From: Streptomyces sp. NA02950
GTDB lineage: Bacteria > Actinomycetota > Actinomycetes > Streptomycetales > Streptomycetaceae
NCBI RefSeq assembly: GCF_013364155.1
Contig: NZ_CP054916.1
Span: 2,724,501-2,788,500 of the forward strand
Direction of reading: 5' to 3'
DNA length: 64,000 nt
Shown here: positions 36,410 through 51,252 of the stretch, one piece after another
How the letters are laid out: each line of letters opens with the position of its first letter
Numbering within the stretch: the stretch's first letter is position 1
Notes under the pieces: generated by a model
The model's database searches: none
The model's input: the letters and a program-made list of their open reading frames with translations, nothing else
What the model was told of the DNA's origin: nothing
Position numbers and translations under genes: made by a program

Positions 36410-37516
36410 TCAGCGCTCCGTGGCCGCCAGCTGCCCGCAGGCCCCGTCGATCTCCTGCCCCCGGGTGTCCCGGACGGTCACCGGCACACCGTGCGCCTCC
36501 AGGGCCGCCACGAACGCTTTCTCGTCCTCGGGGCGGGAGGCCGTCCACTTGGAGCCGGGCGTCGGGTTGAGCGGGATCAGGTTGACATGCACCCGGTGGC
36601 CCTTGAGCAGCCGGCCGAGCAGATCGGCCCGCCACGCCTGGTCGTTGATGTCCTTGATCAGGGCGTACTCGATGGAGATCCGGCGGCCGGACTTCTCCGC
36701 GTACTCCCACGCGGCGTCCAGGACCTCACGGACCTTCCAGCGCGTGTTGACCGGGACGAGGGTGTCGCGCAGCTCGTCGTCGGGGGCGTGCAGCGAGACC
36801 GCGAGCCGGCACTTGAAGCCCTCGTCGGCGAAGCGCAGCATCGCCGGAACCAGTCCGACGGTGGAGACGGTGATCCCGCGCTGGGACAGGCCAAGACCGT
36901 CCGGCTCGGGGTCGGTGAGCCTGCGGACGGCGCCCACGACCCGGTTGTAATTGGCCAGCGGCTCGCCCATGCCCATGAAGACGATGTTGGACAGCCGGGC
37001 CGGACCGCCGGGGATCTCGCCGTCCCGCAGCGCCCGCATCCCGTCGACGATCTGGTGGACGATCTCGGCGGTGGACAGATTGCGGTCCAGACCCGCCTGG
37101 CCGGTGGCGCAGAACGGGCAGTTCATCCCGCAGCCCGCCTGGGAGCTGATGCACATGGTGACCCGGTCCGGGTAGCGCATCAGCACGGACTCCACCAGCG
37201 TGCCGTCGAAGAGCCGCCACAGGGTCTTGCGGGTCGTGTCGTCGTCACAGCTGATGTGACGCACCACGCTCATCAGGTCCGGAAGCAGCCCGCCCGCCAG
37301 CTTCTCGCGCGCGGCGGCGGGGATGTCCGTCCACCGGGCCGGATCGTCGGTGTACCGCGCGAAGTAGTGGCGCGACACCTGACCGGCCCGAAAGGGCTTC
37401 TCCCCCAGCGCCGCGACGGCCTCTCGGCGCTCGGCGGGGGTGAGGTCGGCAAGGTGCCGCGGGGGCTTCTTGGCCCCGCGCGGCGCGACGAAAGTGAGTT
37501 CTCCGGGCTTAGGCAT
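36410..37516 (-). CDS. rlmN: 23S rRNA/tRNA (adenine-C2) methyltransferase RlmN
   Basis: 368 residues. The radical-SAM 4Fe-4S cluster motif CGMNCPFC has Cys129, Cys133 and Cys136. Supporting blocks are [17 protein letters not shown] and the C-terminal Cys360 in GACGQ, which together define RlmN. It methylates A2503 of 23S rRNA and A37 of some tRNAs. The ORF is intact although its first six codons and ribosome binding site lie inside the integrated element's 40-bp direct repeat. Its former neighbour cdsA is now 13.7 kb away, so its upstream region comes from the element. Confidence 0.95.
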
Positions 37517-37536
37517 GGTCCACCCAGTGTCGCAGA
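37497..37536. repeat. Left attachment site (40-bp direct repeat, rlmN side)
   Basis: Perfectly identical to 51213-51252. It contains the rlmN start codon (37514-37516), the first 20 coding bases and 20 upstream bases including GGGTGG as ribosome site. Bases diverge on both sides: G versus C before, T versus C after. Confidence 0.95.
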
Positions 37537-37643
37537 TCGATTCCTGTGACCTGCGGCCGTCGCCCCGGAGGGTGGTCGTTGACGGTCGTTGTTGGTCGTC
37601 GTTGGCCGCCCTCGGACGGCCCCCAGACGGCCCCGCCGTCGCC

Positions 37644-38891
37644 CTACGAGGGAAGGAATCCAGGCTTGGCCTGGCCGAGGTCTCGCAGGTGAGACAGGTA
37701 CTCCTGTGCTGCTGGCTCGGTCGCGTACCGTTTCTTGACCACGGCCGCCAGTTCCCGGCTGGTCATGATGAGCGACGGAACAGACTGCCGCTCCCCTTGA
37801 AGTGCACGCTCGCCATGGATCAGTGCCTGTTCGAGGTCTCCCTCTCGGGCCGCCGTCACACCGAGCGTGACCCGCGCTTCGGCGTTCCGCATCGGGCTGC
37901 GCTCCGTGCCATCGAAGTCCGTACCAGTCCGCAGCACCTCATCAGCCAAGGTGCGGGCGAGCTTGTCTTCGCCGACGAGCCGATAGCAGTCCATCGCGTA
38001 GAAGTCGAACTTCGCCGGATCCACCACGAAGTGGTGATCGAGGTTGTCAGGGTGCGGCATCCCTTCAAGCAGGCGCCGCCCGCGGTCGAGAGCAACCTCT
38101 GTCTGCCGACGGTCGCCGAGACGGGCCCACGCCTTGGCTTCCTGGGCAGCGAGCTGCACAGCCACGCTGTGGTTCCCCGCTCGCTCGGCGCCCGCTTGGG
38201 CCGCAGCGATGACGCCCCGGTAGTCGCCCGTGGTCAGCGCGAACCACGCGCGCATCTCATGCGCCCAGCCCGCCACCTCCGCGTGATCAGACTCAGTCGC
38301 CAACGAGAGAGCCGCGCGGCGGGTGGACTCCGCGGCGTGGCGGTCACCGGAGTCGTATTCCACACAGCCGACGAGAAGAGCCAGCCAGCCGGAAAGCGCC
38401 AGCACCTCACGATGCTGTGCGAGCGTGAGGTTCTTCGAGGTGAGGTCGACGACGCGCTTCAGCCATTGGCGCCCCTCCAGGAGGAGCTGTTCGCTCGGCA
38501 AATGCGGATACTCCGAGCAAAGGCGATCCGTGGTCATGCGGAGCGCATCCAAGGTGGCATTGTCCACGTCGGATCGGTTGAGGCGACTGACAATTTCGAG
38601 CGTCTCCATGCCACTCGCAACAAGGATTTCCGCATCGCCATTCCGACGTGACGGCGCAGGAAACAACGCGTGCGTCACGGTCCCGAATGTGGCCGCGATG
38701 ATGGGGCGGTAGAACTCTCCGGGCATGGCCCCGGACTCCCAGCGCTTCCACTGGCGCACCATGCTGTCGTCGGCTGGCAGCTCCGTCGAGGCATGCGCCC
38801 TCATCGCCTTGACCGCGTCGAGCTGGGACCAGTCACGCGCCATCCGCTCCGCTGCGATACGTCGCGCCCATGCGGGCCTGCCGTCGCTCAT
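37644..38891 (-). CDS. XRE-family regulator with TPR-like C-terminus
   Basis: 415 residues from the ATG at 38891, where GGAGGAGG precedes the start. The N-terminal 90 residues resemble a helix-turn-helix of the XRE group ([20 protein letters not shown]). The rest is an all-helical array of about 35-residue units, typical of TPR-type sensor domains of Streptomyces regulators ([53 protein letters not shown]). It is the leftmost gene of the element and reads toward rlmN; read-through could supply rlmN transcripts. It is likely a regulator of excision, replication or transfer. Confidence 0.8.
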
Positions 38892-38937
38892 CTCGCCCTC
38901 CTCCGGGTATCTACCGCGAGTCTGGTCCGTCGGCCGA

Positions 38938-38986
38938 GGGGACACGCAAGAGGACAGAACGGTGACACCTCAAGTGTCCCCTGTCC
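38938..38986. promoter_or_regulatory. Nested GACA/TGTC inverted repeats upstream of the XRE gene
   Basis: GGGGACAC (38938-38945) faces GTGTCCCC (38974-38981). Inside, GACAC-ctcaa-GTGTC is a tight palindrome (38964-38978). GGACAG (38952) and CTGTCC (38981) add a third pair. It lies 47-95 bases upstream of the XRE start, so an autoregulatory operator is likely. Confidence 0.5.
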
Positions 38987-39049
38987 GATCCTGCTGCCCC
39001 TTCGCTGTCACTTATTTCGAGTGGCGCGACCTGTCATGGTTATTTCAGA

Positions 39050-39403
39050 TCACATACCACCCGAGTTGGCGCGCTCTTCGAGTGCCGCCACGCGCTCCGC
39101 CAATACCTGAATCTGGAGGCGCAATTCCTTGAGTTCTTCGCCGACGCCCCGGCTGCCCTCTGACAGCTCCGACTTACCTCCCGCGACGAAATACCCACGA
39201 TTCCCCGCAGAGACAACCAACCCTTCGTCCATCAGGATGCGCATTCCGTCTCGGACGGTCTGCGTGGCGTATCCGAACTCCTGCGCCATCTCCTTGACCG
39301 TCGGCAGCTTGCCGTCCGGGTAGCTGCCGCTCTCGATCCGACCGCGCATCGCGTCGGCCACCTTCACCGGCTTGGGCCTCGGGTCGCTCGCCACACCACT
39401 CAT
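39050..39403 (-). CDS. GntR-family regulator (KorSA-like)
   Basis: About 117 residues from the ATG at 39403 (a longer ATG at 39469 is in frame but overlaps a palindromic region). The winged helix (KVADAMRGRIESGSYPDGKLPTVKEMAQEFG, then TVRDGMRILMDEGLV) is GntR type, and a coiled-coil-like tail ends in LQIQVLAERVAALEERA. There is no effector domain. In pSAM2 a GntR-type protein, KorSA, represses the activator of replication and transfer; this gene is a plausible counterpart, but no pra-like activator was recognised here. It reads away from the transfer genes. Confidence 0.85.
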   Translation of the reverse strand: MSGVASDPRPKPVKVADAMRGRIESGSYPDGKLPTVKEMAQEFGYATQTVRDGMRILMDEGLVVSAGNRGYFVAGGKSELSEGSRGVGEELKELRLQIQVLAERVAALEERANSGGM

Positions 39404-39461
39404 GGCTTCGAGGGTATCCGGCGGCGCCAACTCCGACCGGGCCGTGCATACCCAGTTGCGA

Positions 39462-39497
39462 ACTAGCATGAGCTAGTGCAAGCTAGCTTCCGTTAGC
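39462..39497. promoter_or_regulatory. CTAG palindromes upstream of the GntR-type gene
   Basis: ACTAGC-atga-GCTAGT (39462-39477) and AAGCTAGCTT (39480-39489) are perfect palindromes, followed by GTTAGC. CTAG is rare in bacterial DNA, so this cluster is likely an operator, best explained by autoregulation of the adjacent GntR protein. Confidence 0.55.
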
Positions 39498-39886
39498 CCG
39501 CGAGAGCCGATCCGGTGACCAACGACTGACCTGCACAAACACGCCCGGAGGGCCCCGTGAAACGGGTTCAAAGGAAGCGCTCGTTGCTTCAGAACTGAAC
39601 AGTGAATCGAGATGGGGTGAGAGCCCCCATCCCCGAGGACGACCGGGTTACGTCGTCGGCGGCATCACCACGTGCTGGCTCTGGAGAACACCCCTCAGGG
39701 TGCCACCCGGCCGCGCCGCCCTGCTCGCGTCAGAGCAGCGACGATGACGCACCGGAATCCAGGGCCCGGATGGGTTGGCACCCAAGTCCCTACATGCGCT
39801 TCGAGCGCGCACGGTCCTCGACAACGGCCGCCAGCGGCTGGTGTCGAGAGGCCGCGTCCGCTCGACACCGAGTGGTCGAAACCAGA

Positions 39887-39919
39887 GCGGTCCCCCGGGT
39901 TGCCCCCCCGGAGGACCGC
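39887..39919 (+). terminator. Strong hairpin just upstream of the zinc-ribbon genes
   Basis: GCGGTCC-c-CCGGG pairs with CCCGG-a-GGACCGC, 12 pairs with one mismatch and a short loop. It ends 16 bases before the GAGAGG ribosome site of the first zinc-ribbon gene. It may act as attenuator or leader structure. Confidence 0.5.
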
Positions 39920-39947
39920 GTACAGGCACCTGAATGAGAGGCAACCT

Positions 39948-40076
39948 GTGATCACCAGCATGACATGCGGCTCCTGCGGGGGCGCCGGCGGTCGGACCGA
40001 GACCACCTCGGAAGGCGGAGTCACCCGCCAGACCTGGCGCACCTGCGGCTCCTGCTGCGGAAGCGGGACCCGCTGA
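39948..40076 (+). CDS. Mini zinc-ribbon protein (DnaJ-like CxxCxGxG), 42 residues
   Basis: GTG start at 39948 with GAGAGG seven bases upstream. The 42 residues carry CGSCGGAGG near the start and CGSCCGSG at the end, two CxxCxGxG repeats like those binding zinc in the DnaJ cysteine-rich domain. No J domain is attached. Its stop overlaps the next start by one base. Function unknown. Possible roles are an RNA/DNA-binding knuckle or a chaperone-like adaptor. Confidence 0.7.
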   Translation: MITSMTCGSCGGAGGRTETTSEGGVTRQTWRTCGSCCGSGTR

Positions 40077-40198
40077 TGGGCGCCCCGATCCGCTGCACCA
40101 CCTGCAACGGCACCGGCGGAGGCCAATGGGTCATCACCGGCAACGGTTCCCAGACCCGCCAGCCCTGCGGCTCGTGCGGCGGTAGCGGGACCCGGTAG
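40076..40198 (+). CDS. Second mini zinc-ribbon protein, 40 residues
   Basis: ATG at 40076 overlaps the previous stop (TGATG). It also has two CxxCxGxG repeats, CTTCNGTGGG and CGSCGGSG, at the same spacing as its neighbour and ends in the same GTR, so the pair arose by tandem duplication. Between the repeats lies a Gly/Gln/Thr/Ser stretch. A 47-bp leader repeat follows its stop. Confidence 0.72.
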   Translation: MGAPIRCTTCNGTGGGQWVITGNGSQTRQPCGSCGGSGTR

Positions 40199-40227
40199 CC
40201 GACCTCTGTCACCTCAAGCGCCCGGGT

Positions 40228-40274
40228 GCGGTCGTCCTCTCGCCAAAGACCGCGACCGCCCCGGGCCCTACCCC
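40228..40274 (+). repeat. Leader repeat, copy 1 (47 bp)
   Basis: Matches 47431-47476 with one substitution and one single-base indel. It contains GCGGTCG/CGACCGC, a 7-bp inverted repeat, ends in CTACCCC and lies 29 bases ahead of the next start codon (40304). It marks the beginning of a gene block and is probably a transcriptional boundary or shared control site. Confidence 0.85.
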
Positions 40275-40303
40275 CTGCCTGACCAGGCAGCAGGAGTTCC
40301 GTG

Positions 40304-40621
40304 ATGCGTACATTCATAGGAGATCAGGAGGCCGTCAGTGCCTCTGAGTTCGAGGAGTTGGCTTTCGGCTTCGATGAGGGGCCTGTCGGCCTGGACCGTG
40401 AGTTGTTCGTCGGTCCGCCGCACCCGGAATCGGCGAAGGACCGCCAGGCGCGGCTGGCCGTGGCGCGGGAGGTCCTGCGCGACCTGCGTGAGGCTGCTGC
40501 CGCTGGCGATGAGATCGCCGGATGGGACGCGCTCTACGCCAAGGAGCTGACCAAGACGGTCCCGCTGTTGCGGTCCGCCGCGCGCACGCGCCGTTCCTCG
40601 AGGAAGGGGGCGGCGGCATGA
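40304..40621 (+). CDS. Conserved-type element protein of unknown function
   Basis: 105 residues from the ATG at 40304 (GTG at 40301 is in frame; CAGGAG lies seven bases upstream). Acidic at the front, then an Ala/Arg-rich helix (RQARLAVAREVLRDLREAAAAG) and a basic tail. No domain is recognised. It starts a run of overlapping genes leading to traB: its stop overlaps the start of the DUF2786 gene. Confidence 0.6.
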   Translation: MRTFIGDQEAVSASEFEELAFGFDEGPVGLDRELFVGPPHPESAKDRQARLAVAREVLRDLREAAAAGDEIAGWDALYAKELTKTVPLLRSAARTRRSSRKGAAA

Positions 40622-41364
40622 GCGAGTACATCTCTGACGGTCTGCTGGCGAAGGTCCGTGCTTTGCTGGCCAAGGCGGAGGATGCCGGAGCCACAGAGGC
40701 CGAGGCGGAAGCGTTCACCGCGAAAGCGGCCGATCTGATGGCCAAGCACGGCATCGAGCGGGCGCTGCTGGCCGATGCCCAGCCGGAGACGGACAGGCCC
40801 ACCGATCGCGTAGTGCTGGTCGACAACCCGTGGGGCGGTCCGAAGAAGTCACTGCTGTGCTACCTGGCACAGGCGATGCGCTGCGAAGGCATCTACACCA
40901 CCCGCCGGGACGCGCCGGGCTACCGGGTCCACCTCTTCGGCTATGCCTCGGACCTGGAACGGCTAGAGGTGCTGTACACCTCTCTGCTGCTCCAGATGGC
41001 CAACGGTGCCGCTCACCTGGACATCCCGTATTGGGACACACCCCGCCGGTACAGATTCTCCTGGATGGTCGGCTTCGCTTCAACCGTGGCCCATCGGGTC
41101 AAAGCGGCCGAGGATCACGCCCGATGGCAGGCCGGTAACACCACCGCACAGACTGGTACCGGTCGCAGTGCGGAGCTGGTGCTTGCCGACCGGTCCGCCG
41201 TCGTGGGCGCGATGGTCAAGGAGCACTACGGGCGCGTGCGCTCCCGCAAGGTCACGGTTACCGGAACCGGCTACCGAGCAGGCCAGGAAGCCGGACGGCG
41301 GGCCGACATCGGCACCACCCGGCTCGGCGCCTCCGCCGCACGGCAGATCGGCGGTGCCCGATGA
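40618..41364 (+). CDS. DUF2786 domain protein
   Basis: 248 residues. The ATG at 40618 overlaps the previous stop (ATGA). Residues 1-50 match DUF2786: LLAKVRALLAKAEDAGATEAEAEAFTAKAADLMAKHGI, a short helical motif seen in phage- and plasmid-linked proteins of unknown role. The remainder is mixed alpha/beta (DNPWGGPKKSLLCYLAQAM, FGYASDLERLEVLYTSLLLQM) with a conserved-looking YWDTPRRYRFSWMVGFA. No catalytic motif is obvious. It is coupled to the GGDEF gene by a 4-base overlap. Confidence 0.78.
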   Translation: MSEYISDGLLAKVRALLAKAEDAGATEAEAEAFTAKAADLMAKHGIERALLADAQPETDRPTDRVVLVDNPWGGPKKSLLCYLAQAMRCEGIYTTRRDAPGYRVHLFGYASDLERLEVLYTSLLLQMANGAAHLDIPYWDTPRRYRFSWMVGFASTVAHRVKAAEDHARWQAGNTTAQTGTGRSAELVLADRSAVVGAMVKEHYGRVRSRKVTVTGTGYRAGQEAGRRADIGTTRLGASAARQIGGAR

Positions 41365-42260
41365 GTCACACACTCGCCGCCCTGTCCGCCGCCGCCCCGC
41401 TGGCCACCGGATGGGCCGTCCACGGGCTGTGGTTCCGCCGCAGCCTCGACCGGGCCCGCCGCGATCCTCTGACCGGTCTGCCCACACGGGCCGGGTTCGA
41501 GAAGGGTGCCGGGCAGCTGCTGCGCAAGGAGCGGTGCGCGGTGCTGCTCATCGATTTGGACGGCTTCAAAGCCCTGAACGACACGATGGGCCACGCGGCC
41601 GGGGACGCGGCCATCCGCGCGGCCGGTGAGCGCCTGGGCGTCTGGGTGCACGTGCAGAACGGGGCCGTTGGCCGGTTGGGCGGTGATGAGTTCGCTGCCG
41701 TAGTCAGCATGCCGCACCCGTCTGATCTGCCCGTGGAGCTGTCCACGCTGCACCGGATGGTGTGTGAGCCGGTGGAGTTCGACGGCCACCTGATCCCGTT
41801 GGGCGCCTCGATCGGCGCCTACCACGGCCCTCACCCCGCCCCGGCCCTGTCCGTCGCGCTCCGCCGGGCGGATGAGGCGATGTACGCCGCCAAGCAGTCC
41901 GGCGGCGGCTGGGCCATCACCGACAACCCCACTCCCGCATACCGCACCGTGAACGGCCGTCGCGACGGCCGCAACGGCACCAGCAACGGCACCAGCAATG
42001 AGGACCCCATGAGCACCCGCTACGACGGCTATGACCTCTTCGAAGAGGCCGACGACTACGCCGACTTCGAGGACGAGGAGTTCGAGGACGCGGAGGAGTG
42101 GCAGCCGGACGCCGGCCAGTGTGACCGCTGTTCGATGGCGCCGGGTGAGGTCATCGAGCCGCTTGGCTTGTGCTGCGCCTGCTCGATCGGCCAGGGCGCC
42201 GATCCGGAGAACTGCGTGTGCGGCCCCGCCCCGGACGACGGCGCGGAAGGGGCCTCGTGA
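41361..42260 (+). CDS. GGDEF-domain protein (putative diguanylate cyclase) with cysteine-rich tail
   Basis: 299 residues. After a short hydrophobic start comes a near-canonical GGDEF domain: DPLTGLPTRAGF, DLDGFKALNDTMGH, intact GGDEF at 107-111. The inhibitory RxxD site five residues upstream is absent (VQNG). So it could make c-di-GMP without product feedback, if active. Residues 170-215 are Ala/Gly/Asn-rich. The last 80 residues, from a possible internal ATG at 42009 with AGGA upstream, are acidic and Cys-rich (CDRCSMAPG, CCACSIGQG) and may be a separately translated small protein. It overlaps both neighbours by 4 and 1 bases. Confidence 0.82.
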   Translation: MSHTLAALSAAAPLATGWAVHGLWFRRSLDRARRDPLTGLPTRAGFEKGAGQLLRKERCAVLLIDLDGFKALNDTMGHAAGDAAIRAAGERLGVWVHVQNGAVGRLGGDEFAAVVSMPHPSDLPVELSTLHRMVCEPVEFDGHLIPLGASIGAYHGPHPAPALSVALRRADEAMYAAKQSGGGWAITDNPTPAYRTVNGRRDGRNGTSNGTSNEDPMSTRYDGYDLFEEADDYADFEDEEFEDAEEWQPDAGQCDRCSMAPGEVIEPLGLCCACSIGQGADPENCVCGPAPDDGAEGAS

Positions 42261-43315
42261 TGACCACAGTGGCCGAGACTGACCAGGTCGCCGCTCCGCA
42301 GGTGCCGCCGCTGTCCCGTCGGGAACGGATCCTGCTGGTGGTGGTCGGTGCTGCGGGCATCGGCGTGGGCGGGCTGGGGTTCGCGGCATCGTTCGATGCG
42401 GTGTCGGCGGCCGGGGCCCGCTGGGGGTTCCGGTATCCGTGGATGCTGCCGGTGGGCATCGACGCTGCCGTGCCGGTGTTCACCGTGGCCAACCTGCTGC
42501 TGATCCGGATGAACATGCCGCTCGCATGGGTGCGCTTCGTGCCCTGGGCGCTGACGCTGGTCACCTGCTGGCTGAACGTCGCGGCCGGGCACTCGCTGTC
42601 GGCCAAGGTCGCGCACGGGACGATGCCGCTGCTGTGGGTCGTGCTCTCCGAAGTGGCCGCGCACGTCTACGCCGTGCGGATCGGCGCCGCGATCGGCAGC
42701 CGCATGGAGCGCATCCGGCGCTCGCGCTGGCTGCTCGCTCCGCTGTCGACGTTCGCCCTGTGGCGCCGCATGACTCTGTGGGAGATCACCTCCTACGCCG
42801 ACGCCCTCGCCCGCGAGCGCGAGCGGCAGCTGGCCCGCGCCGAGCTGCGTGAGCAGCATGGGCGGCGGTGGCGCTCGAAGACCCCGCGCCGGGAACGCGT
42901 GCTGCTCAAGCTCGGCGACCAGGCCCCCGCCACCGCAGCCGAGCCGGACCCCATGCCGGCACCTCCGCCCCCGGCGGAGCCGAAGCAGGAGCACCGCCAG
43001 GCCGAGGAGCCCAAGGCCGAGCCGAAGCCGCGGCGGCGGCCGGGCAGGGCGGCCAAGCCCTCCCGGAAGGTCCGCGGTTTCGATGAGCTGCTCACCGAGG
43101 CCCGCGAGGTCACGGCCGACTGGCCGGAGGAGCGGCTGAAGGCCGAGCCGATCCGGAAGGAGCTTCGCTGTAGCGCGGAGCACGCCCGCTCACTGCGCGA
43201 TGCGCTGAAGGCCGAACGCGCCGCCGACAGCCCTGCGCTGCATCCCGTGGCCACCGAGCCCGACACCACCACCGCCGAAGACGAGACCGATCACACCGAG
43301 GAAGAAGCAGCATGA
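42260..43315 (+). CDS. DUF2637 membrane protein
   Basis: 351 residues from the ATG at 42260, overlapping the GGDEF stop (TGATG). The front half (about 30-165) has four hydrophobic segments with FGFRYPWMLPVGIDAAVPVF-like features, matching DUF2637, a family found beside FtsK/TraB genes on Streptomyces plasmids and AICEs. The rear half is highly charged (Arg/Lys/Glu/Pro) with a short helix-turn-helix-like end (LKAEPIRKELRCSAEHARSL). It is perhaps a spread or transfer accessory that could anchor DNA or TraB at the membrane. Confidence 0.78.
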   Translation: MTTVAETDQVAAPQVPPLSRRERILLVVVGAAGIGVGGLGFAASFDAVSAAGARWGFRYPWMLPVGIDAAVPVFTVANLLLIRMNMPLAWVRFVPWALTLVTCWLNVAAGHSLSAKVAHGTMPLLWVVLSEVAAHVYAVRIGAAIGSRMERIRRSRWLLAPLSTFALWRRMTLWEITSYADALARERERQLARAELREQHGRRWRSKTPRRERVLLKLGDQAPATAAEPDPMPAPPPPAEPKQEHRQAEEPKAEPKPRRRPGRAAKPSRKVRGFDELLTEAREVTADWPEERLKAEPIRKELRCSAEHARSLRDALKAERAADSPALHPVATEPDTTTAEDETDHTEEEAA

Positions 43316-43602: not shown

Positions 43603-43628
43603 GGATCACCAGCACCGCACAACCGCGA

Positions 43629-43669: not shown

Positions 43670-43699
43670 CCCATCCCTCCTAGTTGGAAGGAACCACCA

Positions 43700-45946
43700 G
43701 TGAACCACCCCGACGACGACAACGAATTCTTCGACCGACTCGAAGCCGAGATAGCCGCCGACTACCCGCCCGACTCCGGGGGCGAGGTAGTCGACTTCAC
43801 CAAGGCCCGATCCGCCCGTGCCGAGTCGGCCAACCCCACCACCCGACCCGACGCCGACGCGTCGCCCGACTCAACGGCGCCCCGGTCGGCAGACCCGTCG
43901 GGTGGCGAGTCGGGCGACCCGACCACACCCCAGGTGGTCGACCAGCCGACCCGACCGGACGGCCCCGGGTACCTGGGTCGGCTGCTGGCCGCCAAGCGCC
44001 GTCCGGTCGTTCCGGTCTGGCTGCGGTCGACGGCGGAGCTGAAGACGGCCGCCGCGTGGGTGGCCCGGCACTACACGCACACCGCCGGATACCACGCCCT
44101 TCGGTCTCCGGTCTACGCCGCCCGCCTCACCTTCCAGGCGCCCACCGGGGCCGCGCGGTTCATCGGCGGCACGCTGCGGTGGATGGCCGACCGTGAGGGT
44201 GAGCCGGTCCGCCTCGCCGCTGTCCGGCGCGAGGATGCGGCCGACTACCTCAAGCTCTCGCGCCAGCGGGACGGACGGGTCCGGCTGCGCACCCTCGTGA
44301 CGGTGCTGGCCATGTTCGTCGGCCTGGGCGCCGCGCTGGCCATCTACGTGCTCGCTCCCGACTGGCTTCAGGCCGTCTCCGTGGGCGCGGTCGTGATGGC
44401 TCTCGGCTTCGCTGGCCGGAAGGCCGATGCCCCCGTGATCCATCGGGCGGTCGAGCTGCCCAAGGCGACCAAGCTGACCAGTGACATCGTGCTGCGCGCG
44501 TTGGGGTCGCTGGCCATTCCCGCGATCAATCAGGCCCAGGCCAAGGGCCGGGACGGGTTCACCTTCACCGCCCCGATCACCCGCGACGGCCCCGGCTGGC
44601 GTGCCGAGGGTGACCTGCCGTTCGGTGTGACGGTCACCGACATCATCGAGCGCCGGGAACGCCTCGCCTCAGGGCTCCGCCGTCCGCTGGGCTGCGTGTG
44701 GCCTGAGGCGGTGCCGGATGAGCACACCGGGCACCTGGTGCTGTGGGTCGGGGATCAGGACATGTCCCGGGCGAAGCAGCCGACGTGGCCGCTGCTGAAG
44801 TCCGGCCGTGTGGACCTGTTCAAGCCGGTCGCCTACGGCACCGACCAGCGCGGCCGGTGGGTCGAGGCCACGCTGATGTACATCGCGGGCGTGATCGGCG
44901 CGATCCCCCGCATGGGCAAGACGTTCCTGCTCCGTCTCCTGCTCCTCATCGCCGCCCTGGACCCCCGGGCCGAGCTGCACACCTACGACATGAAGGGCAC
45001 CGGCGACCTTGACCCGGTCGGCAACGCCGTCTCCCACCGGCACGCCGCTGGCGACGATGACGAGGCGATCGAGTACGCCATCGCCGACTTCCGCGCGCTG
45101 CGCGAGGAGTTGCGCCGCCGCACCAAGGTGATCCGGTCCCTGCCCCGGGACATCTGCCCGGAGTCGAAGGTGACCAGCGCTCTCGCCGACAAGCGGTCGC
45201 TGGGGCTGCACCCGATCGTGGTCGGCGTGGATGAGTGCCAGGTGCTCTTTGAGCACCCGAAGTACAAGGATGAGTTCGAGGAGATCGCCACGGACCTGGT
45301 CAAGCGTGGTCCGGCCACCGGCATCGTGCTGCTCCTGGCGACCCAGCGCCCCGACGCCAAGGCGCTGCCCACGGGCATCTCCGCGAACGCCTCGGCCCGC
45401 TGGTGCCTGAAGGTCATGGGCCAGCTGGAGAACGACATGGTCCTGGGCACCTCCGCCTACAAGCGCGGCGTGCGCGCGACCATGTTCGCCTGGGCCGACA
45501 AGGGCATCCATTACTTCGTCGGCGAAGGCTCCGACGCCCGGATCGTGCGCGCCATCTACATCGACGGACGCGACGCCGAAGCCATCGGCGCCCGCGCCCG
45601 CAAGGCGCGCGAGGCGGCGGGCACTCTCTCCGGGCACGCGCTGGGGGAAGAGCCGGAGCCCACGACCAGCGCGTATGACCTGCTCGCCGACATCCTCGCC
45701 GTCGTCCCCGCCAAGGAGTCCAAGGCGTGGTCGGAGACGGTTGCCGCGCGGCTGGCGGAGCTGCGGCCGGAGGTCTACGACGGCTGGGACCCCGAAGCGC
45801 TCTCCGCAGCGCTCAAGCCGCTCGGTGTCTCCACGATCCAGGTGGGCCGCCGGGTGGACGGCAAGGTCGTCAACCGGCGCGGTATCGACCGCTCCCACAT
45901 CACCACCGCGATTGCGGAGCGTGACGGAAAGCGGGACGCGGGCTGA
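43700..45946 (+). CDS. traB: TraB/FtsK-type DNA translocase for conjugative transfer
   Basis: 748 residues from a GTG at 43700 with GGAAGGA seven bases upstream. Layout: about 190 polar residues, two hydrophobic segments (about 200-240), then an FtsK/SpoIIIE-type ATPase with a Walker-A-like IPRMGKT (Gly406-Lys407-Thr408) and Walker B VVGVDECQ (Asp511-Glu512), and a C-terminal 90 residues that could be a winged helix. TraB proteins of Streptomyces plasmids pump double-stranded DNA as hexamers and recognise clt repeats through that tail. The CTAG palindromes 11 bases after its stop are candidate targets. No relaxase is present, as expected. Confidence 0.9.
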   Translation: MNHPDDDNEFFDRLEAEIAADYPPDSGGEVVDFTKARSARAESANPTTRPDADASPDSTAPRSADPSGGESGDPTTPQVVDQPTRPDGPGYLGRLLAAKRRPVVPVWLRSTAELKTAAAWVARHYTHTAGYHALRSPVYAARLTFQAPTGAARFIGGTLRWMADREGEPVRLAAVRREDAADYLKLSRQRDGRVRLRTLVTVLAMFVGLGAALAIYVLAPDWLQAVSVGAVVMALGFAGRKADAPVIHRAVELPKATKLTSDIVLRALGSLAIPAINQAQAKGRDGFTFTAPITRDGPGWRAEGDLPFGVTVTDIIERRERLASGLRRPLGCVWPEAVPDEHTGHLVLWVGDQDMSRAKQPTWPLLKSGRVDLFKPVAYGTDQRGRWVEATLMYIAGVIGAIPRMGKTFLLRLLLLIAALDPRAELHTYDMKGTGDLDPVGNAVSHRHAAGDDDEAIEYAIADFRALREELRRRTKVIRSLPRDICPESKVTSALADKRSLGLHPIVVGVDECQVLFEHPKYKDEFEEIATDLVKRGPATGIVLLLATQRPDAKALPTGISANASARWCLKVMGQLENDMVLGTSAYKRGVRATMFAWADKGIHYFVGEGSDARIVRAIYIDGRDAEAIGARARKAREAAGTLSGHALGEEPEPTTSAYDLLADILAVVPAKESKAWSETVAARLAELRPEVYDGWDPEALSAALKPLGVSTIQVGRRVDGKVVNRRGIDRSHITTAIAERDGKRDAG

Positions 45947-45956
45947 TCGTCCGGGG

Positions 45957-46044
45957 CCGCTAGCGCTAGCGGCATACCCCGCTAACGTTAGCGGCCCCGC
46001 TAGCGCCCCACACCGCATCTGATCAGGCCGCTAGCGGATAGCGG
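45957..46044. repeat. CCGCTA palindrome cluster downstream of traB (possible clt)
   Basis: Two perfect 16-bp palindromes (45957-45972 CCGCTAGC/GCTAGCGG and 45979-45994 CCGCTAAC/GTTAGCGG), a half site CCGCTAGCG at 45997, a perfect 10-bp palindrome CCGCTAGCGG at 46028-46037 and a half site TAGCGG at 46039. The 6-mer CCGCTA or its complement occurs eight times in 88 bases. Its place next to traB fits a cis-acting transfer locus, or the operator of an element regulator. Confidence 0.7.
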
Positions 46045-46087
46045 CCCACCTGCGGAAACCCCTCGAAGCCGCCCGGGAGGGCCCTCC

Positions 46088-46339
46088 ATGACCCCCATCA
46101 CCCTTGCTATCACCTGCCTGCTCGCCATCACACTCGGTTACGCATCTCTGTGTGCGGTCTCGCCGTTCGGCGACTGCCGGAAGTGCCACGGCATGGGCCA
46201 CGCCATCAAGACCGACCGCAAAGGCCGCATGAAGCGCGGCAAGGACTGCCGCCGCTGCGACGCCACCGGCAAGCGCATACGCGCCGGTCGCTGGCTCTAC
46301 AACCGCGCCGCCCGCATCCACCGCGACGGCACCCGCTGA
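46088..46339 (+). CDS. Small membrane protein with zinc-ribbon-like CxxC pairs
   Basis: 83 residues, GGGAGG eight bases before the ATG. One hydrophobic N-terminal segment (about 4-26) and then CRKCHGMGHA and CRRCDATGK, a DnaJ-like CxxCxGxG type pair, in a very basic context. It resembles the small proteins that follow traB in plasmid spread operons, but the exact family was not recognised. The cysteine pairs echo the two mini zinc-ribbon genes at 39948 and 40076. Confidence 0.7.
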   Translation: MTPITLAITCLLAITLGYASLCAVSPFGDCRKCHGMGHAIKTDRKGRMKRGKDCRRCDATGKRIRAGRWLYNRAARIHRDGTR

Positions 46340-46366
46340 CCCGCTCCCAGAAAGGGGCTCACACCC

Positions 46367-46561
46367 ATGACCGTCACCGTCTCCCTGGTGCTGCTGCTCG
46401 CCATCGGCCTGGGCGCTCTGTTCAAGGGCGGGCATCTGCGCGTCGGGGCCGCTGTCATCGCCGTGCTGTTCGGCTTCTACCTCGCCAACACCGACGCCGC
46501 TCCCTCGGTGAACAAGACCGTCACCTCCATCACCGACGCCATCACCGGCATCGGCAACTGA
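46367..46561 (+). CDS. Small hydrophobic protein, spread (Spd) type
   Basis: 64 residues from the ATG at 46367. Two hydrophobic segments (VSLVLLLAIGLGALF and VGAAVIAVLFGFYLA) joined by a short basic loop, then a Thr/Ser-rich amphipathic end. Size and position match SpdB/SpdD-type membrane proteins that help spread transferred DNA between septated compartments of the recipient mycelium. The identity is inferred only from position and size. Confidence 0.6.
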   Translation: MTVTVSLVLLLAIGLGALFKGGHLRVGAAVIAVLFGFYLANTDAAPSVNKTVTSITDAITGIGN

Positions 46562-46581
46562 CCTCCACGGGGCCGGTCCAC

Positions 46582-46782
46582 GTGAACGAGCGCATCACGC
46601 TCATGGCCGCTGGCGAACTCCGCGACGCCCTCGCCGCCCACCAACGCGGCGACGTCCCCGCGACCCTCGGCGCGCTGATGAGCATCGATCCCGAGTCCTG
46701 GCAGGCCATCGAACGCCGCCTCGCCTCCCTCGGCGGCAACCTCCCCGACGTCCTCGCCGCTCTCCGAGGAGAAACCCCGTGA
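46582..46782 (+). CDS. Small helical protein, 66 residues
   Basis: GTG at 46582 is used; ATG at 46603 is in frame. Ala/Leu-rich helices with SIDPESWQAIERRLASLG. No domain is recognised. Its stop overlaps the GTG of the next gene (GTGA), so they are translated together. Its place in the spread operon suggests a transfer accessory. Confidence 0.5.
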   Translation: MNERITLMAAGELRDALAAHQRGDVPATLGALMSIDPESWQAIERRLASLGGNLPDVLAALRGETP

Positions 46783-47036
46783 CTCCCGAACTGATCACCG
46801 CCGCCGCGCTGCTGGCGCCCGGCGCGATCCTCGGCCCGGTGTGCCTCGCCGGACACCGCCGCGCCCGCCGCCGCGACGCCATCGAAGCCGCGGTATGCGC
46901 CGCCTACCGGCCCGGCCCGCCCGACGAGGACCCCGAGCCCCCGCCCAAGGGCCGCATGAAGGGCAAGCCCCAGACCGCGCCCGCTCGCCTCGCCCAGGTC
47001 ATCGACTTCCCCACCAACCGCCGCAACGCCGCCTGA
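46779..47036 (+). CDS. Small basic membrane-tethered protein, 85 residues
   Basis: GTG at 46779 overlaps the preceding stop, with GAGGAGAAA upstream. One hydrophobic segment (ITAAALLAPGAILGPVCLAG), then a strongly basic, Pro/Lys-rich tail (RMKGKPQTAPARL). It may sit at the membrane with its tail on DNA. No family was recognised. Confidence 0.6.
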   Translation: MTPELITAAALLAPGAILGPVCLAGHRRARRRDAIEAAVCAAYRPGPPDEDPEPPPKGRMKGKPQTAPARLAQVIDFPTNRRNAA

Positions 47037-47057
47037 ACAGGCCAGGAGCGATCCACC

Positions 47058-47420
47058 ATGCCGCAGCAGACCATGACCGCCGCCGAACTCTCCGACGCCG
47101 CTGCCGAAGCCATCCGCCAGCTCAACCACCTCACCCGCCCGGCGGGGAACGGTCTGGAGTACCCGGGCGACGCGTACAGCACCGTCTCCAACCTCAAGAC
47201 CCTCGTACAGCGCCTCCCGCAGACCTTCGAGCAGATCTTTGCCTTCCTCGCCGATCTGCACGAGGGCGGGAACCTGCGCAGCGACCGGGGCCCGAACGCC
47301 GATGACGACGTGGCCGCCGTCAAGGCCGCCCTCGACTGGGCTGCGGACGACGCCCGGAACCTCGCCGAAACCCTCGACAGCGCGCACTCCGCACTGAGCC
47401 CCATCAGCTACGCCGCATAG
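47058..47420 (+). CDS. Helical hypothetical protein, 120 residues
   Basis: ATG at 47058, with CAGGAGCGA 12 bases upstream. Predicted largely helical (AAEAIRQLNHLTRP, NLKTLVQRLPQTFEQIFAFLADLHEGGNL, VAAVKAALDWAADDARNLAETLDSAHSAL). No domain is recognised. It closes the spread-type operon; the leader repeat follows 10 bases after its stop. Confidence 0.62.
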   Translation: MPQQTMTAAELSDAAAEAIRQLNHLTRPAGNGLEYPGDAYSTVSNLKTLVQRLPQTFEQIFAFLADLHEGGNLRSDRGPNADDDVAAVKAALDWAADDARNLAETLDSAHSALSPISYAA

Positions 47421-47430
47421 CTGCACCGGG

Positions 47431-47476
47431 GCGGTCGCCCTCTCGCCAAAGACCGCGACCGCCCCGGCCCTACCCC
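47431..47476 (+). repeat. Leader repeat, copy 2 (46 bp), ahead of the replication gene
   Basis: Matches 40228-40274 except for one substitution and one indel. It contains the GCGGTCG/CGACCGC inverted repeat and lies 32 bases before the rep start (GTG 47509). Confidence 0.85.
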
Positions 47477-47508
47477 ATCCATCCGCAGACAGACAGGAGG
47501 ACTCAATA

Positions 47509-49314
47509 GTGGCACCCGAGCCCGCCCCGTCGCCGTACGACAACGTGCGTACGCTGCACGGCGGCGCCGAGCCTGGCATTGACCGGATGCCCCCGCAGGA
47601 TCTCGAAGCCGAGCAGTCCGTTCTAGGCGCCATGCTGCTGTCCGCCGCCGCCATCGACGATGTGGTCGCAGCGATGGACCCCGCCGACCACTACCGGCCC
47701 GCGCACGAGACGATTCACCGCGCCATTCGCGAGCTGCACGACCAGGGCCAGCCCGTCGACCCCATCACCCTCACGCACCACCTCGACAAGCGCGGCGACC
47801 TGGCACGCGTCGGCGGCGCGAGCTACCTGCACACCCTCGTGCAGACCGTGCCGACCACCGCCAACGCCGAGTACTACGCCGAGATCGTGCGGGACAAGGC
47901 CGATCGCCGCCGCCTGATCGAGGCCGGTAACCGGCTCGCGCAACTGGCCGCCGAACCCGGCACAGATGCCGAAGAGGTCCGGGCCACCATGCTCGCCGAG
48001 GTCACCGCGCTCGCCCCGAGCCCGGCCGGGCAGGAGAGCGACAGTGCCGGCACCCCAGCCGGACCCCCAAACCCCCTCTACGACCCGCACTCAAGCATCC
48101 GCCGCCCGCACCGGCCGGGGCCCACCCCGCACCCGGATGTGTTCTGCGGCTGGGTCGGCGAGACCGTGCGCGAGCTGGACCCCACCACCGAAGCGGACCC
48201 GGTTGCCGTGCTCGCCAACCTCCTGTCCGCCGCCGGGGCCGTTATCGGCCGCCGCCCGCACCTCATGGTGGGCAACGACCGGCACCCCTGCCTGATCTGG
48301 GCCCTGACCATCGGCCCCACCTCCTCAGGCCGCAAGGGCTCGGCCACCTCGACCGTGCGGCGGGTGCTCGCCGAGGCCCTGCCCGACTTCTTCGGCCCCG
48401 AGCACACCCCGCGCGGCCTGAACTCCGGGGAAGGGCTGATCGAGTACGTCAAGGACGACGACAGCGAGGACGCCAACCCGGCCAGCGTCGACAAGCGGCT
48501 GTGGGTCCTGGAGTCGGAATACGCCGTGACCATGAGCAGAGGGCGGCGCGAGGGCAGCAGCCTGCCCGGTGTGCTGCGGCAGGCATGGGACGGGGATTCG
48601 CTCGGCTCAATGGTCCGCGACTCACTCAAGGCCACGGACCCGCACATCGCGATCCTGGGCCACATCACCCCGGAGGAGTTCCGGGCCAAGATGCAGGACT
48701 CCGAGATGGCCGGGGGCACTTACAACCGGTTCCTGCCGATCTTCTGCCACCGCAACCTGATCCTTCCTGGCTCGCGCGGCGCCAGCCCGGAGCTGGTGAC
48801 CAACCTCGCCACTGGTTGGCGGACCGTCCTCGCCGACGCGGCCCAGGTTGATGAGGTGAAGTTCAGCCCAGACGCATGGGCTCTGTACTGCGACGAGGTG
48901 TATCCAGCGCTCAGCGAGGACGACGCGGCGGGCGGTGTGATCGCCCAGTTCACCGCCCGAGCGGCCCCGTACGTCCAGCGGACCGCCATGGTCTACGCCC
49001 TGTGCGACCACACCGACACCATCGCCGAGCACCACATGCGCGCCGCCTGGCACCTCCTCGACTACGCCCGCGCCTCCGCCGTCCACCTGCTCGGCAACGT
49101 CTCCGGTGACCCCAAGGTGGACAAGCTCGCGACCGCCGTCCGCGCGGCCGGAGCGGACGGGCTCACAGGCGAGCAGGTTCGGAAGCTGTTCAAGAGCACG
49201 GGCAAGGCAGAGCGTGAACGGCTCACGGCCGCACTACTGGACCTGCCCGGCTACAGCCGCACGCAGAAGCCCACCGCAGGCCGTCCGACCACTGTCCTCG
49301 CCTACACGGGCTGA
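47509..49314 (+). CDS. Replication protein: DnaB-like N-domain fused to a P-loop module
   Basis: 601 residues from a GTG with ACAGGAGG eight bases upstream. Residues 27-145 match the replicative-helicase (DnaB) N-terminal domain: DLEAEQSVLGAMLLS, GGASYLHTL and the RRRLIEAGNRLAQLA linker. Residues about 205-500 resemble DUF3987 primase/helicase-like proteins, with GPTSSGRKG at 269-277 as a shifted P-loop and LWVLESEYA as Walker B-like. The end is helical with a possible wHTH. This is probably the element's replication initiator/helicase. RepSA-type rolling-circle or Prim-Pol motifs, usual in AICEs, were not seen. Iteron-like repeats follow. Confidence 0.7.
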   Translation: MAPEPAPSPYDNVRTLHGGAEPGIDRMPPQDLEAEQSVLGAMLLSAAAIDDVVAAMDPADHYRPAHETIHRAIRELHDQGQPVDPITLTHHLDKRGDLARVGGASYLHTLVQTVPTTANAEYYAEIVRDKADRRRLIEAGNRLAQLAAEPGTDAEEVRATMLAEVTALAPSPAGQESDSAGTPAGPPNPLYDPHSSIRRPHRPGPTPHPDVFCGWVGETVRELDPTTEADPVAVLANLLSAAGAVIGRRPHLMVGNDRHPCLIWALTIGPTSSGRKGSATSTVRRVLAEALPDFFGPEHTPRGLNSGEGLIEYVKDDDSEDANPASVDKRLWVLESEYAVTMSRGRREGSSLPGVLRQAWDGDSLGSMVRDSLKATDPHIAILGHITPEEFRAKMQDSEMAGGTYNRFLPIFCHRNLILPGSRGASPELVTNLATGWRTVLADAAQVDEVKFSPDAWALYCDEVYPALSEDDAAGGVIAQFTARAAPYVQRTAMVYALCDHTDTIAEHHMRAAWHLLDYARASAVHLLGNVSGDPKVDKLATAVRAAGADGLTGEQVRKLFKSTGKAERERLTAALLDLPGYSRTQKPTAGRPTTVLAYTG

Positions 49315-49316
49315 GG

Positions 49317-49502
49317 CCGGTAAGGGCGAAAAGGTAGATAAGCCTGCTGACCTGCGAAAACAGCGATCCGGTAAGGGAGTCGGTAAGCGGGGTGGAAAGT
49401 CCGCAGAGCCAATGGCCAAGACTTACCGACCACCTTTCCAACCCCCTTACCGGCGCCGTAAAAGCCCAGCTCAAGCGGCTTATCACCCTTATCGCCCTTA
49501 CC
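49317..49502. repeat. Iteron-like GGTAAG repeats between rep and xis (possible origin)
   Basis: CCGGTAAGGG at 49317-49326 and 49368-49377, CGGTAAGCGG at 49381, and the inverted copies CTTACCG at 49422, CCCTTACCGG at 49444-49453 and CCCTTACC at 49495. Degenerate GATAAG/CTTATC variants at 49337, 49479 and 49488. The arrangement, direct repeats on one side and inverted on the other within 190 bases, fits initiator-binding iterons. The spacing is irregular. Confidence 0.6.
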
Positions 49503-49533
49503 TCCCCGCCCGGACATACGAAGGGAACTGACC

Positions 49534-49788
49534 ATGTCCGCCCATGGGGCCAGGACTCAGCCGCCCGCTAGCGACCCCCGCACCACGCTGCGGGCCGGAC
49601 TCCCGGATCGCTACCTCACCCCCGACGACATCGCCGAGATGTTCGAAGTCTCGAGAGAGACCGTCTACACCTGGCGCAAGAAGCGCATCGGCCCGCCCGG
49701 ATTCCGCGTCGGCAAGCACGTGCGCTACGACCCCACCGCCGTCCAGCGCTGGGCCGCTGAGCGTATGGCGGCCGACACCGCCGCCTGA
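49534..49788 (+). CDS. xis: Excisionase / MerR-like helix-turn-helix protein
   Basis: 84 residues from the ATG at 49534, with GAAGGGA seven bases upstream. The helix-turn-helix DIAEMFEVSRETVYTWRKKRIGPPGFRVGKHVRYDPTAV is the common Xis type that bends DNA at attachment sites so that Int can excise the element. It lies before the integrase gene, as in pSAM2. A CCGCTAGCG copy lies inside the gene (49565-49573). Confidence 0.88.
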   Translation: MSAHGARTQPPASDPRTTLRAGLPDRYLTPDDIAEMFEVSRETVYTWRKKRIGPPGFRVGKHVRYDPTAVQRWAAERMAADTAA

Positions 49789-49818
49789 ACGACGACCAAC
49801 TGAGCGCATCACCACCCC

Positions 49819-49850
49819 GCAGGGGCGGAGCCACTGGGCTCCGCCCCTGC
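49819..49850. terminator. Very strong hairpin between xis and int
   Basis: GCAGGGGCGGAGCC (49819-49832) pairs perfectly with GGCTCCGCCCCTGC (49837-49850), 14 pairs around a four-base loop. It ends 32 bases before the int start, so it should limit read-through of int from the rep-xis transcript. Confidence 0.75.
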
Positions 49851-49882
49851 TCTGATCTGTCCGAGAAGGGATCACGCCTCAA

Positions 49883-51145
49883 ATGGCTGGCCACATCCAA
49901 GACCGCTGGTACAAGAACGAACCCGGCCCCAACGGCAAACCCCACCGCGTCAAGACCAACCGTCACGGCACGGGCATGCGCTACCGCGCCCGGTACGTCG
50001 GCCCCGATGGCACCGAGAAGTCCAAGTCATTCCGCGACGGACAGAAGCGCCTAGCCGAGAAGTGGCTCAACAACACCGCGTCTGACATGTCGCGAGGTCA
50101 GTACATTGATCCGCGCGCCGCCCGGATCACCTTCAAGGGCTACGCCGACAAATGGCTCAAGGCTCACACCACGGATCCGTCCAGCCAGATCGTGACCGAA
50201 CAGCGGCTTCGCCTGCACGCGTTCCCACTCATCGGCTCGCGACCGCTGGACTCGTTCCGCCCCGAGCACATACGCGGACTGGTGGGCGCCTTGGAGGCGA
50301 ACCCATCTGTCAGCGGTGGGTACGCGCGCAACATCTACGGCGACGTTCGAGCCGTCCTGAGCGCGGCCGTGGACGACGGTCCATTGCCTCGGAATCCGTG
50401 CACCGCGAAGTCTGTCCGCCCTCCAACAGCCGAGCGGCGCCGCGTCGCGCCGTGGCTGACCACCCAAGTGCACGCCGTCCGCGCAGCGCTCCCCGGGCGG
50501 TACCGGACCATGGTGGACACGGGTGCGGGGTGCGGACTCCGACAGGGTGAGATCGTAGGGCTCGCTGAAGACGCCCTCGACTTCGAAGGCGGCATCCTGC
50601 GAGTGGTCCGGCAGGTGAAGCTGATCCAGGGGAAGGCCGTGTTCGCCCCGCCGAAGTGCGGCAAGGAGAGGGACGTGCCCCTGCCGTCGTCGGTGGCTGA
50701 GGCTCTGCGCGGTCACATGGACGCCTACAAGCCGGTGGAGATCACGCTCCCGTGGCGGAAGCCGGACGGCCCGAAGGTGTCGGCCCGTCTCCTGTTCACG
50801 AACACCGCGAGTGGGGTCGTGTGGCGCAGTAACTTCAACATCCAGGAGTGGAAGCCCGCGCTCGCCGTCGCTGGCCTCATCCCGGACGCCGGGGCGGACG
50901 GCAAGTACGAGTCCGCGCGTGAGCACGGCATGCACGCGCTGAGGCACTTCTACGCGTCCGTGCTGCTGGATGCTGGAGAGAGCATCAAGGCCGTCAGCCA
51001 GTATCTGGGGCACACCGACCCCGCGCTGACGCTGCGGGTATACGCGCACCTCATGCCGTCGAGCCAGGAGCGTACGAGGAAGGCCATCGATCGAGCGTTC
51101 CAACCCACTCCGCGCGAGACTGACGGCCCAGAGACGGCCCAGTGA
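49883..51145 (+). CDS. int: Tyrosine recombinase integrase
   Basis: 420 residues from the ATG at 49883, with GAAGGGA 11 bases upstream. N-terminal Arm-type DNA-binding and core-binding parts precede the catalytic domain, with all key residues visible: Arg220 (GCGLRQGE), His351 and Arg354 (HALRH), His377 (LGHTD) and the nucleophile Tyr387 (RVYAHL). It integrates the element into the rlmN 5' end and, with Xis, excises it. It ends 67 bases from the right attachment site, the normal place for such genes. Confidence 0.95.
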   Translation: MAGHIQDRWYKNEPGPNGKPHRVKTNRHGTGMRYRARYVGPDGTEKSKSFRDGQKRLAEKWLNNTASDMSRGQYIDPRAARITFKGYADKWLKAHTTDPSSQIVTEQRLRLHAFPLIGSRPLDSFRPEHIRGLVGALEANPSVSGGYARNIYGDVRAVLSAAVDDGPLPRNPCTAKSVRPPTAERRRVAPWLTTQVHAVRAALPGRYRTMVDTGAGCGLRQGEIVGLAEDALDFEGGILRVVRQVKLIQGKAVFAPPKCGKERDVPLPSSVAEALRGHMDAYKPVEITLPWRKPDGPKVSARLLFTNTASGVVWRSNFNIQEWKPALAVAGLIPDAGADGKYESAREHGMHALRHFYASVLLDAGESIKAVSQYLGHTDPALTLRVYAHLMPSSQERTRKAIDRAFQPTPRETDGPETAQ

Positions 51146-51148
51146 CCC

Positions 51149-51197
51149 GCGAAGGGCCCCCTACCGACGCCAAACGCGCAGGTAGGGGGCCCTTCGC
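51149..51197. terminator. Terminator beside the right attachment site
   Basis: GCGAAGGGCCCCCTACC (51149-51165) pairs perfectly with GGTAGGGGGCCCTTCGC (51181-51197), 17 pairs around a 15-base loop. It lies right after the int stop and insulates int and the chromosomal cdsA end in both directions. Confidence 0.9.
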
Positions 51198-51232
51198 CCC
51201 CGGATCACTTCCAGTTCTCCGGGCTTAGGCAT
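51161..51232 (-). pseudogene. rlmN 5' remnant fused to element DNA at the right end
   Basis: The right repeat copy retains the rlmN ATG (51232) and first six codons. Reading on leftwards into element DNA gives a 23-residue mini ORF ending in TAG near 51161. It carries the ribosome site of rlmN and sits in the old rlmN upstream context, a scar that shows the direction of insertion. Confidence 0.7.
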
Positions 51233-51252
51233 GGTCCACCCAGTGTCGCAGA
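51213..51252. repeat. Right attachment site (40-bp direct repeat, cdsA side)
   Basis: Perfect copy of 37497-37536. On the minus strand it reads through the rlmN ribosome site, ATG and first codons. Flanking bases differ from the left copy. Together the two repeats define the element ends. Confidence 0.95.

Follow-up and report, generated by a model that had tools for sequence, protein, structure and literature searches.

A predicted AICE-type element at the 5′ end of rlmN in Streptomyces sp. NA02950

Restoration of tRNA 3′ ends is a known trait of actinomycete integrative and conjugative elements (AICEs). Here we describe an AICE-type element at the 5′ end of a protein gene, rlmN, within a stretch of 64,000 nt of Streptomyces sp. 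NA02950 (NZ_CP054916.1), called the window, whose numbering is used throughout. According to Ghinet et al., tRNA 3′ ends serve as targets for most tyrosine integrases of AICEs, the pSLS subfamily being the exception, and unforeseen AICE replication modules are allowed for (PMC3218068); a survey of insertion sites counts 36 in tRNA genes, 14 in protein genes and one that is intergenic (PMC9513070). The same survey reported in 2022 that AICE03 of Streptomyces sp. RLB3-6 is inserted in rlmN with an 11-nt direct repeat, and that its integrase and excisionase differ from those of family members at tRNA-Val, so that the rlmN site would come with a swapped module (PMC9513070). Like the window element, AICE03 is an AICE in rlmN, and its repeat has the length of the end segment CCCGGAGAACT of the repeat described below (lengths, not letters, were compared). 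A literature search that left most subscription journals outside gave no case of an AICE or an integrase at rlmN besides this one.

The window element resembles the tRNA-targeting AICEs of the pSAM2 type (PMC3218068) in having a tyrosine integrase, an excisionase and an FtsK-type translocase between direct repeats. It differs from them in its target, the 5′ end of a protein gene, and in its replication protein, which carries DnaB_N and DUF3987 and appears not to be of the RepSA, RepAM or Prim-Pol type. Insertion at a protein-gene 5′ end, with the frame kept in the case of the window, is shared with SXT/R391 in prfC and with dusA islands such as IMEVchUSA3 (PMC8409611, PMC4482086, PMC2791158), which are gammaproteobacterial and of other classes. 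IMEVchUSA3 provides a new DusA N-terminus 61% identical over 35 residues, whereas the copy carried by elements of the window type is near-identical to the host over about 30 bp, including a compact extended −10 box. Read from its sequence, the locus appears to show the 5′-end strategy of SXT–prfC and of the dusA islands within the AICE class. A preliminary description of the window had set the protein-gene target against the usual tRNA genes; this holds for the locus, but an rlmN AICE had already been published (PMC9513070), and the differences from SXT and the dusA islands are the element class and the closeness of the 5′-end copy.

We propose, with a probability of about 0.78, that the AICE-type element integrates by recombination between attP and the rlmN 5′ end, with exchange near the downstream end of a 40-bp repeat, and that the 5′ part of attL is element DNA. 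The element's integrase would carry out this recombination, with strand exchange most likely within GGAGAACT (codons 5–7). The attL DNA upstream of the exchange, with its extended −10 box, near-leaderless start codon and first four codons, would then belong to the element, which would keep it as a copy of the host rlmN 5′ end. The rlmN gene would retain its frame and a native-type promoter, while its native upstream region would now lie 13.7 kb away at attR. TraB is predicted to transfer double-stranded DNA, and the element to excise and replicate. The proposal draws on the repeat, the gene content, the empty sites, the recurrent use of the site, the positions of attL/attR differences and the conservation of the box, all of them read directly from sequence.

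The element and its insertion site

The two copies of the 40-bp direct repeat are identical and spaced by 13,716 bp (Table 1), in agreement with the preliminary description. A search of the genome (9.77 Mb, two contigs, at most three mismatches) returned exactly these two copies, and the reversed-repeat control returned none. The left copy adjoins rlmN and contains its start codon and first 6 2/3 codons; the right copy adjoins intergenic DNA 3′ of cdsA. Gene coordinates and repeat spacing bear out that the rlmN frame is intact and 13.7 kb away from cdsA. No tRNA gene was found in the window by ARAGORN.

The AICE features present here are an integrase gene beside one att site, an excisionase, a TraB of the FtsK/SpoIIIE type, flanking direct repeats and relatives whose site is empty; they support the view of an AICE-type element that is integrated and conjugative. 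We use the name AICE-type because the replication gene matches no classic AICE type that could be tested: among the scanned proteins there is no Pfam match to RepAM (DUF3631) or Prim-Pol, and RepSA, for which there is no Pfam model, lay outside the scan. The DnaB_N and DUF3987 protein has weak primase/helicase phrog matches. The int, xis, TraB and replication genes are all open reading frames.

TraB scores 12.4 bits with PF01580, under the 24-bit cut-off. It matches an FtsK/SpoIIIE-like phrog (phrog_1358) and is 76% identical to an FtsK-annotated protein of the circular plasmid NZ_CP107792.1; alignment to a relative places its start near 43700. The best PDB match of its predicted structure is the FtsK motor 6t8o (E 4.5e-16, template modelling (TM) score 0.65 by target, root-mean-square deviation 8.7). 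The model of 748 residues has a mean predicted local distance difference test (pLDDT) score of 65.6, with 249 residues below 50 and the motor residues 261–640 mostly above 74. The int, xis, replication, traB and regulator genes listed in the preliminary description are recovered here; its spread-type genes are not, the other families recognised being DUF2637, DUF2786 and GGDEF. PADLOC gave no match among 10 element proteins.

Of 392 Streptomyces genomes, 310 contain a relaxed form of the repeat core, and none contains the reversed control. At least two cores occur in 57 of the 392 by hand count, a figure that includes cores distant from rlmN and elements split over contigs. The end of cdsA lies at most 230 bp from rlmN for 23 rlmN copies (22 fetched loci, 21 genomes), which are empty or near-empty sites; among them, L039, L129 and L169 have left flanks that resemble element scars. 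The nearest cdsA-adjoining relatives by rlmN identity, L044 (93.0%) and L041 (92.4%), are empty; in both the core begins 52 nt past the cdsA stop, which puts the ATG at 72 nt, and the same 52 nt are found at the right end of the element in the window. This is the empty cdsA–rlmN junction of about 72 bp that had been predicted.

An integrase scan of named genomes gave 44 loci, and 43 Streptomyces loci after exclusion of a 42% match in a Clostridiales bin. A core stands on the int side in 40 of these and is joined to rlmN in 11; 42 have one or both (the exception is L092), and cdsA is present in 40. Such conserved neighbours, with the core in 42 of 43 loci, speak against a chance duplication, the alternative named in the preliminary description. 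Tandem GGGCCGT arms (at most two mismatches) stand beside all 40 int-side and all 11 rlmN-joined cores. The AICE-like element first described at the rlmN 5′ end is thus supported by its genes, by the empty sites and by related elements in the same place. By its sequences, the rlmN 5′ end appears as a recurrent insertion site in Streptomyces and not a one-off.

Many rlmN genes without a nearby integrase carry an element-type left flank, and we read them as probable scars. Decay of elements seems to be common at the rlmN site, because 13 of 32 repeat pairs are less than 6.2 kb apart, the shortest 706 bp. The locus offers an exact crossover prediction, and across Streptomyces its site can be followed in occupied, scarred and empty form.

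Some cores were met in other settings. L181 has two rlmN-joined cores 8.9 kb apart (L181:1685 and L181:10582) with an identical native left flank, which points to either duplication or an artefact of assembly. Thirteen further cores have a left flank of the element type but no rlmN after them, and lie far from that gene: L157:15888, L158:11475, L159:12233, L161:11066, L164:2547, L165:9756, L167:9928, L168:8730, L170:9305, L171:8867, L172:9495, L173:9112 and L175:8965. Plain secondary-site insertion by the integrase studied here is not supported as a reading of the rlmN-distant cores (L157–L175), since the integrase near the core in L157 and in L159 groups with those of other targets. Viral contigs hold no exact match to the core, and a plasmid search gave no match, NZ_CP107792.1 being without the core within the mismatches allowed.

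In native cdsA–rlmN gaps (for example in L037, L040, L047 and L053) a hairpin-like repeat recurs, with the middle TTGTCCACAGG or near it, which presumably resembles the Streptomyces DnaA box. The gap of the window has a different sequence, which folds no better than shuffles (z −0.8).

Strand exchange and the promoter-like box of rlmN

We compared attL with attR in 32 distinct pairs by plain mismatch counting, excluding the duplicates L109, L182 and L187 as well as L181 with its two rlmN-joined cores. Eleven pairs are identical and 21 differ. The differences number 73: 72 are at core positions 1–29, one is at position 31 (in L188, a 706-bp remnant) and none is at positions 33–40, which places the crossover most likely within codons 5–7 of rlmN. 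In L093 the attR core is that of the empty relative L200 (rlmN 98.7% identical), and attL has another allele with 10 changed positions, which alter codon 3 as well (AAG to GCA). In L111 attR equals L199/L053 (one genome, rlmN 94.3%), with 3 differing positions in attL. Position 32 of the L080 attR core is a T; should this T be the host's, it would agree with an exchange to its right.

Most likely, then, the element brings a promoter, a start codon and the first four codons that mimic those of the host. This 5′ replacement was mapped in L093, L111 and the 32 pairs; the repeats of the window are identical, so that its own exchange point is assigned from these relatives. The earlier statement that the rlmN promoter is now element DNA is supported by way of the exchange point in relatives, but in the sense of a close copy of the host's promoter and not of foreign regulatory DNA.

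We aligned 83 distinct Streptomyces rlmN 5′ regions (rlmN at least 85% identical) at the start codon. TCTG (−20 to −17) and ACACT (−14 to −10) are invariant, and all 83 have a purine at −3. Variation at positions −7 to −4 leaves no conserved Shine–Dalgarno sequence at rlmN; of the ribosome site, ATG and six codons that the repeat was said to span, the latter two stand. Most of the 83 loci were fetched by core-containing patterns, and the core invariance is thus partly built in. The box and CCCGGAGAACT are present in all seven Streptomyces copies (window excluded) of a class-wide rlmN search that did not fetch by core.

We take TGC followed by GACACT to be a form of the extended −10 box, which would predict an rlmN transcript start near −3 (near 37519). 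The repeat looks as if it held the rlmN promoter, an extended −10 box just 5′ of a near-leaderless start codon. The box is probably an active promoter, from which rlmN would be expressed after integration. A study of S. coelicolor reports 264 mRNAs with leaders shorter than 10 nt (PMC4681348). An extended −10 box this compact, together with a start codon that has almost no leader, would fit into the roughly 40 bp that an element can carry, which suggests what makes rlmN suitable. A −35/−10 promoter in element DNA at attL was considered and rejected, a sigma-70 scan of 37400–38000 having found no such pair there.

Among other actinomycetes, 12 of the 22 best-scoring loci of the class-wide search have the box 5–12 nt before a possible start codon, in each case preceded by TGN. 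Background windows from the 22 loci, with TGN not required, have the box in 2.0%, a contrast that is descriptive, since motif and spacing were fixed after viewing the sequences and several start codons were allowed per locus.

Several of these results weigh against the proposed mechanism. The 11 identical pairs include that of the window, and several of them (L107, L110) share alleles with nearby empty hosts. To explain this, the model needs either a circulation of elements among close hosts or a conversion of alleles. Nor does a given left flank always go with the same core allele. Were the crossover instead at the opposite, upstream repeat end near TCTGCG, the attL core would be host DNA and rlmN would have lost only its cdsA-side context; identical pairs would suit this, as would the attL alleles of the window, L107 and L110, which equal or are close to those of nearby empty hosts. 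We regard such an upstream crossover as very improbable: in L093 and L111 it is the native-joined attR core that equals the empty relative and the attL core does not, and in all 21 differing pairs the differences end before position 33. Also on the adverse side, the box is in none of the other 10 of the 22 actinomycete loci, its definition was set after the sequences had been viewed, and it departs from TANNNT at the first base and has no −35 partner. It is conceivable that rlmN is mainly transcribed by read-through from the NsdA-like gene, which lies on the same strand 127 bp upstream and reads towards rlmN, or from a separate element promoter, with the box conserved merely as an integrase binding sequence; the lack of a consensus −35/−10 pair at attL agrees with this. 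We find it unlikely, given that a similar box precedes rlmN in the 12 other-genus loci, where no such element was seen though none was searched for, and that positions −7 to −4 vary inside the repeat and the box does not.

A replication gene outside the classic AICE types tested is a further point against the proposal, and together with the short repeat pairs at the site it would suit a decayed remnant that has lost its mobility. Somewhat less unlikely than read-through, this is still not what we expect, as the int, xis, TraB and replication genes are open, the repeats are perfect, and the record of the relative whose TraB is 76% identical gives a circular plasmid of 18.5 kb. Integration at the rlmN 5′ end with exchange near the downstream repeat end is the reading that we retain. 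It can be extended, tentatively and with more doubt than confidence, to a genus-wide landing site, at which elements repeatedly replace the promoter, start and first codons of rlmN, its expression and 23S rRNA methylation depend on the last lander, and each element is under selection for carrying a near-leaderless promoter compatible with the host. Whether expression of an enzyme that modifies the ribosome is set by mobile elements can be tested simply in the rlmN case.

Relatives of the integrase

The core lies downstream of 39 of 67 distinct integrases, the search having covered about 1.5 kb downstream of most non-core ones, where a core further away could have escaped notice. At 68% identity or more it follows in 37 of 39; the exceptions are L121, where the contig ends and the core is on the rlmN side, and L092, where cdsA is nearby and the core was not found. 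L024 (60%) and L179 (46%) have the core downstream too, and 26 integrases at 59–67% identity have none in the downstream DNA covered (about 1.5 kb for most). Integrase identity by itself does not appear to fix the target. In 23 of the 39 core-linked cases the core starts 66–71 bp after the matched int end; in the window this distance is 67 bp.

At 23 related integrase loci elsewhere, no tRNA gene lies in the neighbouring 1.5 kb or so, which would fit the pSLS integrase subfamily, with no tRNA target; pSLS is not among the matches listed (25 of 107 plasmid records, all below 60% identity). Nine related loci share one downstream region and four share another. In L009 and L030, of the nine-locus group, we take the downstream gene end to be that of a phosphoglycerate mutase, and in L021 and L032, of the four-locus group, the downstream gene to be glutamine synthetase-like. 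L011 has, about 60–90 bp after int, what is presumably a CIRCE operator-like sequence, with a groEL-like frame further on, and perhaps uses another 5′-region target.

A full-length TraB match of at least 75% is found only in L080 and L092 among the loci compared (L063–L126, L177–L190), and the backbones around int and xis differ among loci. The int–xis–att module, found with differing backbones, could serve as a site-specific integration tool.

Features of the window and minor observations

Table 1 Features of the window around the AICE-type element.
Feature	Position	Strand	Evidence or remark
rlmN	36410–37516	−	Frame intact, first 20 nt in left repeat; PF04055, PF21016 above cut-off
Predicted strand-exchange segment GGAGAACT, core positions 33–40	37497–37504	−	No attL/attR differences in 32 pairs; assigned to the window copy from relatives
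attL, repeat copy joined to rlmN	37497–37536	−	Perfect repeat
Extended −10-like box TCTGCGACACT of rlmN	37526–37536	−	Hexamer GACACT 37526–37531; conservation; activity presumed
Left tandem GGGCCGTC arm repeats, probable integrase arm sites	37615–37633	−	Sequence
NsdA-family TPR-like regulator, reads towards rlmN	37644–38945	−	NF053720, 109 bits against a cut-off of 75
GntR-type regulator	39050–39469	−	PF00392 above cut-off
DUF2786/DUF7168 protein, start uncertain	40522–41364	+	PF10979, PF23771
GGDEF protein with GGDEF motif	41361–42260	+	PF00990; motif seen in sequence
DUF2637 protein, start uncertain	42170–43315	+	PF10935
TraB-like FtsK-type DNA translocase	43700–45946	+	phrog_1358, E 1.3e-23; relative 76%; predicted model
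Replication gene, DnaB_N and DUF3987	47509–49314	+	PF00772, PF13148
Excisionase-like helix-turn-helix gene (HTH_17)	49534–49788	+	PF12728; phrog_66 excisionase
Tyrosine integrase	49883–51145	+	PF00589; phrog_1, E 2.6e-53
Right tandem GGGCCGT arm repeats	51123–51142	−	Overlap final int codons; sequence
Strong hairpin, int to right repeat	51149–51197	−	Fold −49.3 kcal/mol, z −5.9
attR, repeat copy joined to native cdsA side	51213–51252	−	Perfect repeat
cdsA, native upstream neighbour of rlmN	51305–52483	−	PF01148; adjoins rlmN in empty-site relatives

The circular NZ_CP107792.1 of Streptomyces sp. NBC_00562 shares with the window element GntR, DUF2637, GGDEF, FtsK, DUF3987 and HTH proteins and an integrase (60%). 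It differs from it by a Prim-Pol gene, a DUF3987 protein 25% similar in part and the lack of an rlmN core. The GGDEF protein of the window, whose motif is intact, has a counterpart in the circular relative (L205:6002–6652, 51% over 186 residues), and may belong to the element backbone instead of being cargo picked up by chance.

From the orphaned rlmN start at attR runs a frame of 23 codons, MPKPGELEVIRGRRAPYLRVWRR (51164–51235), antisense to int and directed towards the element interior, with the strong hairpin in between. Between traB and the replication gene there are small genes on the forward strand without a clear family. A palindromic-looking sequence of 48 nt occurs twice in the element, at 40220–40267 and 47423–47470, with 90% identity. 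Long inverted repeats pair 49319–49354 with 49467–49502, between the replication gene and xis, and another lies directly after traB, at 45952–45999.

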